From assembly GCA_902778165.1 (NCBI GenBank), contig CACYWQ010000012.1:1-64000 (forward strand): a stretch of DNA of 64,000 bases, written 5' to 3'. Positions 30,301 to 34,530 of the stretch are shown here, in pieces. The DNA is from an uncultured Lachnospiraceae bacterium. GTDB lineage: Bacteria > Bacillota > Clostridia > Lachnospirales > Lachnospiraceae. Both the position numbers and the translations under genes were made by a program. The first letter of the stretch is position 1. Each line of letters starts with the position of its first letter. The notes beneath the pieces are model-generated. The model did not search any database and was not told the origin of the DNA. It saw nothing but the letters and a program-made list of their open reading frames with translations.

Positions 30301-32691
30301 ATGAGACAATACATATGTGATAAATGGCAGTTTTGCAGTAAATTCAGTGAGGATATGCTTGCTGATTCATATAATGGTGAAGCGACAGAGGTTCGTATTC
30401 CGCATTCTGTAACGGAGATGCCTTATAACTGCTTCGATGAGAGCATATATCAGATGGTAAGCGGATACAGAAGGATAATTAACCTTGATAAGAAGTATGA
30501 AGGCAAGGTTATTCTGCTTACTTTTGATGCGGTGGGACATGATTGTAATGTGTATCTAAACGGCGAAGAAGTCGGCTCCCATCATTCAGGATATACTGCA
30601 TTTACCATAGATTTATCCGATAAGATCCGCTTCGGTCAGGATAATGTGCTTGCACTTAAGGTAGACAGCAGAGAGAGTCTTAATACACCGCCTTTCGGAT
30701 TCGTGATCGACTATATGACATACGGCGGAATATATCGAGATGTGTATATCGATATTAAGGAGCCGTCATATATCTCTGATATATATGTTCATCCTGAAGT
30801 AACCATTGCTGACGGCCATGTGACCGCCAAGGTTGTTTCGGATATCAAGGTCTGTCAGAAAGAGCTTGAACTGCTTGACAGTTCGGTTATGATCAGCCAG
30901 ATACTTAGAGATAAGAAGACTAAAGAAGAGCGTGTTTTAGGCGAAGTCGGACTGGATAGGGGCCAGACAATAAGCTTCGATGCAGGTGATGTGGAACTCT
31001 GGGATACGGATAATCCGTATATGTATGAAGTGATCACCGTGCTTAACGTTGAAGGTAAGGAATGTGACAGAAGTGTCATATCCACTGCTTTCAGGACTAT
31101 AGAGTTTAGAAAAGACGGATTCTATTTAAACGGACGGAAGTTCCTAATCAGAGGCCTTAACAGGCATCAGTGCTATCCTTATGTTGGTTATGCAATGCCT
31201 AAGTCAATGCAGGTGATGGATGCTAAAGTGCTTAAATATGAGCTTGGTCTTAATGCGGTAAGAACGTCGCATTATCCCAATTCGCATTATTTCCTGGATG
31301 CATGTGATGAGATCGGACTCTTGGTATTTACCGAGATTCCGGGATGGCAGCATATCGGTGATGATGCATGGAAGGCTCAAGCCGTAGTTAATGTTGAAGA
31401 AATGGTGACTCAGTACCGTAATCATCCGTCTATCATTCTGTGGGGTGTACGAATCAATGAGTCACAGGATGATGATGCATTCTATGAGAAGACCAATGCA
31501 ACGGCGCATAAGCTCGATCCTTATCGTCAGACAGGCGGTGTGAGATTCATTAAGAAGAGCCATCTGCTTGAGGATGTATATACATTCAATGATTTCTCAC
31601 ATGACGGAACAACTCCGGGATGCCAGCATAAGAAGGATGTAACTCCTGATGTTAATAAGGGATATTTCATATCGGAATACTGCGGACATATGTATCCGAC
31701 CAAGGCTTTTGATGATGAGGAACACAGACTTGAGCATGCGCTTCGTCATGCAAGAGTTATAAATGCCGTAGCCGGAGAAGAGGGTGTGGCCGGAAGTTTT
31801 GGATGGTGTATGGCAGATTACAATACACACAGAGATTTTGGCTCGGGTGACCGCATATGTTATCACGGTGTGCTTGATATGTACCGTAATGCCAAGCAGG
31901 CGGCATGGGTGTATTCATGTGGACAGAATGAGGAGCCAATCCTTGAAGTCAGCTCCAATATGGATATAGGTGAGCATCCTGCCGGCAACAACGGCAAGAT
32001 ATATATCTATACCAATGCCGAGAGCGTTAAGATGTACAAAAACGGTAAACTCATGAAAGAATACACTCATAATGATTCCGAATTTGGGAATATAACCTTC
32101 GGACCAATAAGAGTAACGGATTTCGTGGGTAATGCGGTTCATGAATCGGGATTGTATTCGCCTAAGCAGGCGGACCTTGTTAAGTACGGACTTAATGCCA
32201 ACAATGTATACGGAATGAACCATCTGCCTCTTAAGGCTAAGTGGGCTTTCCTTAAGGCTGTTGTCATTTATCATATGAGTTTTGGTGATATGGCTGATGC
32301 ATACGGTAAGTTTATCGGTGACTGGGGCGGAGAAGCGACTGAGTATAAGTTCGAAGCAATCAAAAACGGCAAGGTTGTTAAGACGCTTATTAAGTCTGTA
32401 ATGACTTCCGCTCATATGGAAGCCGTGGCAGACCATACATCGCTTAAAGAAGATCATACTTATGATGTGGCTGCAATCCGTATCCGGGCCCTTGACCAGA
32501 ACAATAATGTTCAGACATATTGTCAGGAACCTGTTGAATTAATAACCGAAGGCCCTATCGAACTGATCGGTCCGTCGATCACCGTACTCCGTGGCGGAAT
32601 GGGCGGTACTTACGTCCGCACCACCGGCAGCGACTGTGTGATTGAACTCATCCCGGAGGGAATGAATAAACTTATTATCCGCGCGAAGTAA
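30301..32691 (+). CDS. GH2 beta-galactosidase / beta-glucuronidase
   Basis: 796 residues; GGAGGG 4 nt upstream supports the ATG at 30301. A sugar-binding jelly-roll domain (about 1-165), an immunoglobulin-like domain (about 165-265), a TIM barrel (about 270-545) and C-terminal beta domains. The acid/base Glu387 lies in Arg-Ile-Asn-Glu-Ser-Gln, and the nucleophile Glu459 in Ile-Ser-Glu-Tyr-Cys-Gly-His. No signal peptide, so it acts on imported substrate delivered by the adjacent symporter. No Asn-Lys-Gly glucuronidase motif was noticed, which slightly favours a galactosidase, but specificity is open. Confidence 0.88.
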   Translation: MRQYICDKWQFCSKFSEDMLADSYNGEATEVRIPHSVTEMPYNCFDESIYQMVSGYRRIINLDKKYEGKVILLTFDAVGHDCNVYLNGEEVGSHHSGYTAFTIDLSDKIRFGQDNVLALKVDSRESLNTPPFGFVIDYMTYGGIYRDVYIDIKEPSYISDIYVHPEVTIADGHVTAKVVSDIKVCQKELELLDSSVMISQILRDKKTKEERVLGEVGLDRGQTISFDAGDVELWDTDNPYMYEVITVLNVEGKECDRSVISTAFRTIEFRKDGFYLNGRKFLIRGLNRHQCYPYVGYAMPKSMQVMDAKVLKYELGLNAVRTSHYPNSHYFLDACDEIGLLVFTEIPGWQHIGDDAWKAQAVVNVEEMVTQYRNHPSIILWGVRINESQDDDAFYEKTNATAHKLDPYRQTGGVRFIKKSHLLEDVYTFNDFSHDGTTPGCQHKKDVTPDVNKGYFISEYCGHMYPTKAFDDEEHRLEHALRHARVINAVAGEEGVAGSFGWCMADYNTHRDFGSGDRICYHGVLDMYRNAKQAAWVYSCGQNEEPILEVSSNMDIGEHPAGNNGKIYIYTNAESVKMYKNGKLMKEYTHNDSEFGNITFGPIRVTDFVGNAVHESGLYSPKQADLVKYGLNANNVYGMNHLPLKAKWAFLKAVVIYHMSFGDMADAYGKFIGDWGGEATEYKFEAIKNGKVVKTLIKSVMTSAHMEAVADHTSLKEDHTYDVAAIRIRALDQNNNVQTYCQEPVELITEGPIELIGPSITVLRGGMGGTYVRTTGSDCVIELIPEGMNKLIIRAK

Positions 32692-32721
32692 TTGCGGTTA
32701 AACAAAGAGCGGAGTTGAGAT

Positions 32722-33459
32722 ATGCGTAAACGTATTTATGAAATAATTGAGGTATCTGAAGAGGGCGATAAAATAAGTTTATTGTACGATTTGATAATGC
32801 TGTGTGCAATCATTATCAGCATTGTTCCATTGGCGTTTAAACAGTCAATATCATTCTTTTACATTACTGATATTATAACAACAGTTCTATTCATAATTGA
32901 TTATTTTCTTAGATTAATAACGGCTGATTATAAACTTAAACAACATAGAGCAACAGCGTTTATTAAATATCCGTTCACTCCATGGGCAATAATTGATCTA
33001 GTTTCAATACTGCCAACGCTTACGGTTCTTAATAGCGGATTCAAACTCTTGCGTTTGTTCCGTATATTTAGAACTTTCAGAGTATTTAGAGTGTTTAAAG
33101 CGTTTAGGTATAGTAAGAGTTTTGCGATAATAGTAAATGTAATAAAGAATTCCAAAAACGCTCTGCTGGCGGTATGTACACTTGCAGTGGGTTATATTCT
33201 TGTTTCTGCACTTGTTATATTTAATGTAGAGGGCGATTCATTTACTACATTCTTTGATGCCATATACTGGGCAACGGTATCGCTTACAACTGTCGGATAC
33301 GGAGATATATATCCTATAACAACAGCCGGTCGAATAATAACAATGATTTCATCTATATTTGGAATTGCAATTGTGGCACTTCCGGCCGGAATAATTACTG
33401 CCGGATATATGGATGAACTTAAAGAAGGCAAGGATAAAGATGGAAGTTCTTTAGAGTAA
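32722..33459 (+). CDS. Voltage-gated potassium channel
   Basis: 245 residues, six membrane helices (S1-S6). S4 carries regularly spaced arginines and lysines (about 108-131, Leu-Leu-Arg-Leu-Phe-Arg-Ile-Phe-Arg-Thr-Phe-Arg-Val-Phe-Arg), the voltage sensor. The pore loop has the K+ filter Thr-Val-Gly-Tyr-Gly-Asp (about 193-198), followed by S6 with Leu-Pro-Ala-Gly-Ile. No cytoplasmic RCK domain. The gene is more A/T-rich than its neighbours, which hints at separate acquisition. It follows the GH2 gene by 30 bp with a GGAG ribosome binding site. Confidence 0.92.
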   Translation: MRKRIYEIIEVSEEGDKISLLYDLIMLCAIIISIVPLAFKQSISFFYITDIITTVLFIIDYFLRLITADYKLKQHRATAFIKYPFTPWAIIDLVSILPTLTVLNSGFKLLRLFRIFRTFRVFRVFKAFRYSKSFAIIVNVIKNSKNALLAVCTLAVGYILVSALVIFNVEGDSFTTFFDAIYWATVSLTTVGYGDIYPITTAGRIITMISSIFGIAIVALPAGIITAGYMDELKEGKDKDGSSLE

Positions 33460-33480
33460 TGGGTTGCTTTGCAACTCACT

Positions 33481-33610
33481 TATCCATTACTGCTTGTCTA
33501 TGATTTTATCTGCACTGAGATGGCGGTCAACCCTGCGAAGCACCGCTACGCGGCTATGGGGTTGACTGCCATCTCAGTGCAGATATACTGTAATCAAGCA
33601 GCAATGGATA
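33481..33610. repeat. 130-bp hairpin element (MITE-like)
   Basis: The outer arms (33481-33496 and 33595-33610) match with one mismatch, and the inner 26-bp arms (33508-33533 and 33559-33584, beginning ATCTGCACTGAGATGG) match with one mismatch. They are separated by an internal loop of 11 and 10 nt and close around a 25-nt centre that holds a CCGC/GCGG stem. The element begins and ends with TA, as expected for an insertion with TA target duplication. It encodes nothing and has no T tract, so it is not a terminator. 33611-33683 shows nothing recognised. Confidence 0.7.
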
Positions 33611-33683
33611 ATAGTGCGCACATGCGCGGTTATAGTTAGGTCACATATCTTACGAGGTGCACGACGTTGGACAATAGCGATGT

Positions 33684-33711
33684 TTGACATGTAATGTTGG
33701 TGTGGTATAAT
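33684..33711 (+). promoter_or_regulatory. Promoter of the antitoxin RNA
   Basis: Perfect TTGACA (33684-33689), 16-bp spacer, perfect TATAAT (33706-33711). It is the strongest promoter in this region, although no plus-strand protein gene follows. Confidence 0.85.
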
Positions 33712-33717
33712 TAAATC

Positions 33718-33804
33718 ACAAAGGCGCTACCGATGACGGTTAGCCCGAGAATAGTTTAGTCAAAAACGACCGCCATAGCCTCGAAACTAACGGCGGTCGT
33801 TTTT
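33718..33804 (+). ncRNA. Putative type I antitoxin antisense RNA
   Basis: From the expected start at about 33718 to the T run at 33804 the RNA would be about 87 nt with no coding frame. Its 3' part is the exact antisense of the toxin stop codon and terminator region (33762-33804), as in Fst/RatA/SprA-type systems. Its 5' part carries a GGTTAGCCC block (33738-33746) that recurs in the toxin mRNA leader. The end points are inferred from promoter and terminator positions. Confidence 0.7.
33762..33804. terminator. Bidirectional terminator shared by toxin and antitoxin RNAs
   Basis: AAAAACGACCGCC (33762-33774) and GGCGGTCGTTTTT (33792-33804) form a 13-bp perfect stem with T5 at the end on either strand. 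The toxin stop codon (33787-33789) lies in its loop. Confidence 0.9.
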
Positions 33805-33897
33805 ACTGTGTTCTATATATCTTCCTACCGCGATTCCGGCAGTGAAGATCGTAATAACGGATGCGATCGCACCCACGATTTCAGAAGCCAGTACCAT
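33787..33897 (-). CDS. Putative type I toxin, 36-residue membrane peptide
   Basis: A short gene with an AAAGGAGGG ribosome binding site (complement of 33905-33913) 7 nt before ATG. The peptide is one hydrophobic helix (about residues 7-25, Ile-Val-Gly-Ala-Ile-Ala-Ser-Val-Ile-Thr-Ile-Phe…) followed by a charged tail ending Ser-Lys-Asn-Asp-Arg-Arg. This is the layout of small holin-like toxins of type I systems (Fst, TxpA, BsrG). The ribosome binding site is folded into a hairpin with a GAAA loop (33905-33920), which would limit translation. It has its own strong promoter and a convergent antisense RNA. I do not recognise the exact family; the peptide's toxicity is inferred. Confidence 0.72.
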   Translation of the reverse strand: MVLASEIVGAIASVITIFTAGIAVGRYIEHSKNDRR

Positions 33898-34013
33898 AGT
33901 AGTGCCCTCCTTTCGGAAGATTCCCACAGGGGGTCTCTATCATAAACGGAGGTTCACAGTCCCTCCGGAGAGGGCTAACCGCCACGTCTTAAGCAGCACC
34001 TTTGCTTAGATTC

Positions 34014-34042
34014 ATTATATCATCTCGAACGTATGTTTGCAA
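34014..34042 (-). promoter_or_regulatory. Toxin mRNA promoter
   Basis: On the minus strand, TTGCAA (34037-34042), 17-bp spacer, TATAAT (complement of 34014-34019). It gives a leader of about 110 nt (33898-34007) rich in inverted repeats, including GGTTAGCCC and several CCTCC/GGAGG segments that can trap the ribosome binding site. Confidence 0.8.
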
Positions 34043-34089
34043 TCAAAAAATGAATTTTGTACCATTGAAGAGTACATTAAAATTGTATA

Positions 34090-34121
34090 TAAAAAGAGGT
34101 GGTGCCGAAGCACCACCTCTT
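34090..34121 (-). terminator. Terminator of the PH-domain gene
   Basis: AAGAGGTGGTGC (34094-34105) and GCACCACCTCTT (34110-34121) form a 12-bp stem around a 4-nt loop; A residues at 34090-34093 give the T tract on the minus strand. Confidence 0.92.
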
Positions 34122-34134
34122 ATAAAATCAGCAA

Positions 34135-34530
34135 TTATGCGTTGTCGATGATTGTGTCGAGATCGTCGATATCGGCGCCGATGTTCTGCATATTGACTGT
34201 ACGGCGACGAAGGCGAGCCTGCTCGGAAGCCTTGATAATATAGTCCTTGATCTCCATAGACTGTCTGATGTTCTTAAGTACAAGCTGTTTGTCAGTTGTA
34301 TCACCTGTAAAGCATGTAACAGTTCCGAGACCGAACATACGCTGGGTTAAACTTCTTGTAAGCTTGGCATCCTGAATCTTATACATATAACAATCATTCT
34401 CTTCGCGTCTGAAGAATCCCGCGTCTACTGTTAGAAGATCTTCGCCTACATTATATACCGTGAAGGTCCAGGGAAGTCCTAAGAATCCCCATCTTTTACG
34501 TGCTCTGTACTTAACTGATTCCTTATCCAT
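34135..34530 (-). CDS. Bacterial PH-domain (bPH2-like) protein
   Basis: 131 residues from the ATG 5 nt after AAAGGAG; a longer frame starting 63 bp upstream has no ribosome binding site. The sequence folds as a PH-like barrel: a Trp-Thr-Phe-Thr-Val-Tyr first strand, Leu-Thr-Val-Asp-Ala-Gly-Phe-Phe-Arg-Arg-Glu-Glu, then Tyr-Lys-Ile-Gln-Asp-Ala-Lys-Leu-Thr-Arg-Ser-Leu and the conserved Gln-Arg-Met-Phe-Gly-Leu-Gly-Thr-Val. No membrane helix is present, unlike YdbS/YdbT, so it is probably cytoplasmic. The function is unknown. It is a single-gene unit with its own terminator. Confidence 0.75.
   Translation of the reverse strand: MDKESVKYRARKRWGFLGLPWTFTVYNVGEDLLTVDAGFFRREENDCYMYKIQDAKLTRSLTQRMFGLGTVTCFTGDTTDKQLVLKNIRQSMEIKDYIIKASEQARLRRRTVNMQNIGADIDDLDTIIDNA

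Follow-up and report, generated by a model that had tools for sequence, protein, structure and literature searches.

A probable SOS-linked type I toxin-antitoxin module in a Lachnospiraceae genome and its RNA-defined relatives

The region 33684-34042 of the analysed DNA (64,000 nucleotides of contig CACYWQ010000012.1 from an uncultured Lachnospiraceae bacterium, hereafter the window) contains two promoters which face each other around a peptide gene on the minus strand and a noncoding RNA on the plus strand (Table 1). In the 3-kb region examined, 18 promoter-like sites were found, compared with 9.3 (sd 3.0) in shuffled sequences, and the plus promoter is the only one that matches the consensus at every position. 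The minus strand carries the features expected of a type I toxin gene, i.e. a small hydrophobic peptide gene with a Shine-Dalgarno (SD) sequence and a promoter. The plus strand carries those of an antisense RNA gene: its own promoter, a terminator, complementarity to the toxin mRNA and no long open reading frame (none of at least 25 aa on this strand within 33718-33812). This arrangement had been proposed in an original prediction made from the DNA letters of the locus, and each of its structural elements was recovered: near-consensus facing promoters, a strong ribosome binding site in front of a 36-residue hydrophobic peptide with a charged tail, a plus transcript devoid of a coding frame, and a shared bidirectional terminator overlapping the toxin stop codon. 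The stop codon (33787-33789) is placed in the terminator loop and the KNDRR codons in one of the two perfect 13-nt arms (33762-33774 and 33792-33804). As a whole, the earlier reading stood in part; it did not include the LexA box, the SD-sequestering leader, the common 5' hairpin or the family-wide spread described below.

Table 1. Features of the predicted toxin-antitoxin locus (positions in the window)
Feature	Position	Strand	Basis
Antitoxin promoter, TTGACA-16-TATAAT, extended -10 TG	33684..33711	+	12/12 consensus
Predicted antitoxin RNA, ~95 nt, both ends inferred	33718..33812	+	R1 match, fold z, covariation
Antitoxin 5' hairpin, GGCGCTACCG-ATGA-CGGTTAGCCC	33723..33746	+	conserved with compensatory changes; similar sequence starts the toxin leader
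Bidirectional terminator, 13-bp perfect arms, 17-nt loop; RNA overlap region	33762..33804	.	inverted arms; helix 2 covariation
Toxin gene, 36 codons + stop, hydrophobic with charged tail, MVLASEIVGAIASVITIFTAGIAVGRYIEHSKNDRR	33787..33897	-	ORF; genus homologues; pN/pS
Shine-Dalgarno AAAGGAGGG = leader segment d	33905..33913	-	can pair with upstream leader segments
Conserved leader stem adjoining the SD	33919..33937	-	helix 4: both sides changed 14 and 13 times at two pairs, 32 sequences
Leader segment c, pairs with b or SD	33947..33954	-	covariation and segment complementarity test
Leader segment b	33956..33967	-	segment complementarity test
Leader segment a, pairs with b or SD	33967..33977	-	cognate pairing permutations and segment complementarity test
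Hairpin at the 5' end of the toxin leader, repeating the antitoxin one in inverted orientation	33972..34000	-	inverted repeat; similarity z>2 in 82/82 loci
Toxin promoter, TTGCAA-17-TATAAT	34014..34042	-	10/12 consensus
LexA/SOS box CGAACGTATGTTTG within the spacer of the toxin promoter	34026..34039	+	13/13 specified positions; genus recA motif

In the plus RNA, a short linker joins a 5' hairpin to the terminator hairpin (fold z -4.67; for the toxin mRNA the value is -4.38). A covariance model (R1) was built from 14 such RNAs, one of which is the window sequence, and it matches 33718-33807 at the window locus; a separate model (R2) came from 11 toxin leaders, another segment of the cassette, and played no part in the finding of loci. 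The DNA search had revealed relatives in 14 of 61 genomes, own included. With R1, matches (E<=0.01) were obtained in 143 of 299 genomes of the family, sampled nearly one per genus, which corresponds to 142 of 298 genera. At E<=0.001, the model also matched 61 of 246 genomes of the order and 15 of 299 of the phylum; 37 and 12 of these, respectively, belong to other families. Many of these extra-family matches, few of which were inspected, are weak. Convergent pairs are present in named records of Roseburia hominis, Blautia massiliensis, Coprococcus comes and Butyrivibrio hungatei, as well as in Anaerovibrio lipolyticus, which does not belong to the family; in Megasphaera NM10 the antitoxin motif is present, but no leader match stands in the proper place beside it.

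Removal of overlapping lower-scoring and identical matches reduced 177 raw R1 matches to 146 distinct loci. A convergent leader accompanies 86 of these, with a start codon at the leader end in 82, and clustering at 85% leader identity left 56; 60 of the 146 have no R2 partner, and 49 have no ORF passing the SD-plus-hydrophobic filter. In this set of 56, an upstream -10 of at least 5/6 was found for 47 antitoxins and a toxin -10 of the same quality for 46 leaders. The R2 matches were convergent to R1 in all 93 cases of a first set, which contains the 11 source leaders of R2, and in 70 of 71 matches of a second set. The latter was found by a 24-nt antitoxin pattern and partly overlaps the first; 80 loci (L179-L258) were examined out of at least 119 matching stretches, and among the matches listed the pair occurs in 60 of the 80 genome loci and in 7/7 viral contigs. 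The window genome has two strong R1 matches. One is the window locus; the other, at C43:3394-3488 (E 2.8e-5), is divergent. This divergent locus encodes a 40-codon hydrophobic ORF and may be decayed, because it has no R2 leader and a poor SD. Two other toxin leaders (L017 1250-1500 and L018 1150-1640) are split by a repeat-like insert (GCGCATGAAGTCCGG...) and are apparently decayed copies.

Both RNAs show signs of conserved pairing, in structures that were predicted from the very alignments tested. The antitoxin alignment (54 of the 56 antitoxins) has 96.9% of cells paired, with 41 both-side-changed cells against 8.8 in shuffled alignments (reached in 0/500), and for further pair types the excess is less marked (8/500 shuffles). 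For the leader, 32 of 56 sequences, hand-chosen for clean alignment, gave 35 both-side-changed cells against 12.9 (0/500; further pair types 20/500), a result which includes the pairing of segment c with the SD. Mutual complementarity of segments a, b, c and the SD exceeds the shuffled level in those 36 of 56 leaders which have a recognisable loop and could be scored. The leader may accordingly switch between a fold in which the SD is hidden and one in which it is free. In the window mRNA the SD is predicted to be mostly paired (mean unpaired probability 0.15). Permutation of cognate partners gave 25/2000 for the anti-SD with the SD and 0/2000 for the middle segment with the SD, both values being uncorrected for relatedness. 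A small effect (reached by 5/2000 permutations, again uncorrected for relatedness) was seen for long-range pairing of the leader GGCGGUU with the terminator arm; we do not take this pairing as settled, as the 5' hairpin would account for these changes too.

The two RNAs begin with a similar hairpin because the repeat in the DNA (33734-33746 and 33972-33984) is inverted, and this sense-sense similarity was detected at z>2 in every one of the 82 loci. Complementarity between the two 5' parts stays near the shuffle level (z about -0.9), with z<-2 in 6/82 loci when the leader was shuffled and in 11/82 when the antitoxin was. No locus-specific pairing of the antitoxin 5' part with the leader was seen, the cognate partner being better in 35/82 loci; with the coding region the cognate was better in 52/82, a slight preference uncorrected for relatedness. 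In the Fst system, direct repeats provide complementarity (PMC7472228). Here, no direct-repeat family of the DRa/DRb kind was found in the 359 bp. Pairing of the Fst type at the 5' ends thus found no support, given the lack of direct repeats, the shuffle-like 5' complementarity and the cognate advantage in only 35/82 loci. The hairpin might protect the RNA ends or serve as a binding site for a protein; it might also be what remains of an inverted duplication in which the toxin promoter and leader were copied.

The overlap between the two predicted RNAs would be confined to the terminator and measure about 45-55 nt, as judged from inferred 3' ends. The YUNR motif is present in the terminator loops of 132 of 146 antitoxins and on the toxin strand of 110 of 146 loci, compared with 85.8 in shuffled antitoxin loops. 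Within single genomes (67 pairs), likeness amounts to 85% for the 5' hairpins and to 54% for the terminator loops, and the family could in this way be used to examine how RNA antitoxins that are paralogous keep their specificity.

A search for homologous peptides, of the kind that the original prediction had suggested, found relatives in 6 of 20 genomes of the genus, own included. Peptide classes vary widely across the family; the RNA frame is constant across them. The pN/pS ratio of family-wide peptides, computed with the last six codons left out, was 0.255 (307 non-independent pairs), with pN below pS in 306 of the 307, and on this measure the peptides are under purifying selection. This bears on the view that the ORF is incidental and the locus a noncoding repeat or a palindromic mobile element. 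The cassette is indeed roughly mirror-symmetric and moves as a unit. Yet such a view can be given hardly any credence in the face of selection on the ORF, of a leader that covaries and pairs with the SD, and of an ORF shorter than 60 aa opening at the leader end in 69 of the 70 convergent R2 matches of the second set (R2 ends on the start codon by construction, whereas the short ORF after it is not built in). The claim that an unannotated type I toxin-antitoxin locus is present is well supported comparatively, by the R1 and R2 matches, the covariation and the pN/pS values.

The box in the toxin promoter takes in the final 3 bases of the -35 and stops 6 nt short of the -10, and we take it to fit the Bacillus-type LexA consensus. 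It is of the same type as the boxes of recA and lexA in this genus. Matches of at least 11/13 were found in 19/19 upstream regions of recA (19 of 20 loci were used, one starting at a contig end; mean best 11.9, shuffled 9.1) and in 17/17 of lexA (mean best 11.7, shuffled 9.0). The recA box likewise lies in the spacer between -35 and -10, with TTGACA just 5' of it in 17 of 19 cases. Among 142 distinct toxin promoters of the family, 47 have a box of at least 11/13, against 0.9 in shuffles, and the rate elsewhere in 154 loci is 0.009 per 70 nt. The frequency depends on the peptide type: 34/68 for MLT, 4/8 for MSDFE, 4/6 for the window's own type and 1/37 for SIVDF. In most promoters with a box (35 of 47, by a loose pattern), a single nucleotide separates its end from a -10-like hexamer; the toxin promoter of the window has 6 nt there. 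Antitoxin promoters have a box in 14 of 139 cases (in a smaller set, 9 of the 81 used out of 82 loci, against 0.2 in shuffles). This is above chance, and at some loci LexA may thus act on the antitoxin gene as well as on the toxin gene; the window antitoxin promoter has no SOS box (best 8/13). From these comparisons, the toxin promoter likely carries a DNA-damage control site, with binding of LexA predicted.

We also observed that SIVDF-type toxin promoters (e.g. L053, L181) are without the box and that several have ACTG-TTATAAT at the -10, perhaps for a different regulator. Separately, promoters with a LexA-like box in L023 (1300-1900) and L022 (1-320), from G007 and G010, drew blastn matches to the toxin promoter; by eye, the gene behind the one in L023 presumably encodes a tnpB-type transposon protein.

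Alternatively, the locus might be a type I module in which the SOS box is non-functional, and which serves as a constitutive stability or addiction element. The absence of a box from 95 of the 142 family toxin promoters and its presence in some antitoxin promoters would be compatible with this. In the genome as a whole, moreover, the strict box is not enriched (one match, against two, 1+1, for the reversed control). Since the reversed control is the commoner, counts alone prove nothing, and the SOS claim is carried by position and conservation. An addiction role would also suit the mobility of the cassette. In genome G018, 33684-34042 alone recurs with 91% identity between flanks unlike those of the window (about 1.5 kb on one side; on the other about 0.1 kb, after which the contig ends). 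Neither the ion-channel gene nor the toxin-antitoxin pair is present at the homologous site in G018 and G013, the two together forming one missing block of ~1.4 kb (32685-34135), and some genomes contain several clustered copies. The antitoxin motif was found in 7 IMG/VR contigs, all with the pair and four with one identical peptide, though some of these contigs may be host DNA. The phage records gave two weak matches to the class consensus (E 0.02 and 2) and none at E<=1 to the window peptide, and the plasmid records three matches at E 1 or worse, with the consensus query only. The module seems to be mainly chromosomal, with occasional carriage. A non-functional box is nevertheless unlikely, as all 13 positions are kept in the own-type relatives from G018, G008 and G003 (L013, L014 and L015) and the motif is that of the recA promoter of the genus.

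Between the ion-channel gene and the cassette, a 132-bp nested palindrome (33480-33611; inverted arms of 27 and 17 nt) was noted, which looks like a miniature mobile or repeat element; a diverged copy is located at G000:C1:350445-350579 and another at the same site in G008.

The peptide family had not been recognised in the original prediction, and this was borne out by the databases: with the window peptide and, according to the library, 2 to 14 relatives as queries, nothing exceeded a curated cut-off in Pfam, NCBIfam, PHROGs or PADLOC, and the Fst toxin family was not among the Pfam and NCBIfam matches at E up to 10. A few divergent members gave weak sub-threshold matches to Hol_Tox (PF16935; 16.1 of 23.3 bits, E 0.01) and to PepG1 of SprG1/SprF1 (NF041589; 19.7 of 70 bits, E 4.7e-4); the window peptide matches neither. 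Rfam produced no match for the cassette of the window or for 16 named loci at gathering scores, and none in six family loci at E<=0.1. Weak matches to DUF202, a cerein-type bacteriocin, PsbN, BcsF, antiporter subunits, Proton_antipo_N (best E 5.4e-4), DUF5337 and a few more were judged to be due to chance, as were those in PHROGs (best E 0.025) and the PDB (E 0.6-0.7); Rfam OrzO-P was also rejected (17-19 bits, cut-off 60). The titles and abstract openings surveyed contain no name for the family, whose members may be listed unnamed in catalogues of small proteins and structured RNAs (e.g. PMC8040213). Six peptide motifs found no match in the literature covered, which excludes supplements and most subscription text.

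The lack of a convincing family match leaves some room for a peptide that is not a toxin, but a small membrane peptide with a regulatory or structural role, which SOS would induce and the antisense RNA would tune. This is quite improbable, considering the patchy and often multi-copy distribution, the convergent antisense layout and the hydrophobic sequence with a charged tail, all of which are usual for type I toxins. The resemblance of two divergent members to PepG1 and Hol_Tox, below cut-off, also speaks for a toxin, but it weighs little, because the Proton_antipo_N match, judged a chance one, reaches a comparable E value with another member.

The probable explanation, which we favour, is a type I toxin-antitoxin module on the chromosome, SOS-inducible through control of its toxin gene by LexA, and Fst-like in layout without the Fst direct repeats. 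Its support is comparative: the paired promoters, two conserved structured RNAs, the shared terminator, selection on the peptide, and the SOS box with its position in the toxin promoter. Such a module could work as follows. In an undamaged cell LexA would occupy the box in the toxin promoter, and transcription from the strong plus promoter, here without a box, would keep the antitoxin RNA in excess. Any toxin mRNA that escaped would fold so that its SD paired with leader segment a or c. The antitoxin would make contact with this mRNA through the complementary loops of the terminator, and the duplex that starts there might block the mRNA or mark it for decay by RNase III. DNA damage would remove LexA, the toxin mRNA would outrun the antitoxin, and the 36-residue peptide could insert in the membrane and slow growth.

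Beyond the single locus, the data raise the prospect, which we rate about evenly, of an unnamed type I superfamily in roughly half of the genera of Lachnospiraceae. Many of its members would be LexA-repressed, i.e. SOS-inducible membrane toxins of Gram-positive bacteria with a tisB-like logic. The antitoxin gene may have arisen in them as an inverted copy of the toxin promoter and 5' leader across the shared terminator, and an origin of this kind would make the module close to mirror-symmetric. Lachnospiraceae are dominant anaerobes of the gut and rumen. For them, a conserved, often multi-copy and apparently unannotated toxin-antitoxin family, partly tied to the SOS response, could provide a concrete path by which DNA damage (fluoroquinolones, phage induction, oxidative stress) leads commensals into growth arrest or persistence. 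Type I genes of B. subtilis, S. aureus and E. coli are triggered by stresses of the nutritional and genotoxic kind (PMC6563280), and passages of three reviews name SOS-inducible type I systems from E. coli only (PMC8309996, PMC6563280, PMC8167048).

Among known systems, the C. difficile type of CD2517.1-RCd8, compared by description only, differs from the locus in its SigB-linked promoters and long complementary region (PMC6563280). The likeness to Fst- and TxpA-type systems that had been proposed for the locus was upheld for the convergent promoters and the bidirectional terminator, and not for the direct repeats or the length of the overlap. TxpA, BsrG and BsrE of B. subtilis also have opposed RNAs overlapping at their 3' ends; TxpA is a single-TM peptide with charged residues, and BsrG and BsrE have YUNR loops, as does the window family (PMC8464778). 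Their overlap, however, is 114-123 nt according to the same source, in contrast to the about 45-55 nt inferred here, and no sequence match to a curated family was obtained. Fst/par of pAD1 shares several features with the locus: convergent promoters, a bidirectional terminator as the region of overlap, a small membrane peptide with a charged tail, an SD-sequestering leader and a U-turn-type motif in the terminator loops (PMC7472228). It differs in its direct repeats, in place of which our locus has an inverted repeat. The tisB/istR-1 pair of E. coli (also dinQ/agrB and symE/symR) comes from another phylum, and IstR is called trans-encoded (PMC8167048), as opposed to the convergent 3' overlap at our locus. 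It resembles what is predicted for our locus in its LexA-repressed toxin promoter, small membrane peptide and antitoxin promoter without a box (PMC8309996), and in a structured leader restraining translation (PMC8167048). By its anatomy, the module may accordingly be classed as a type I system, with control that is likely tisB-like.
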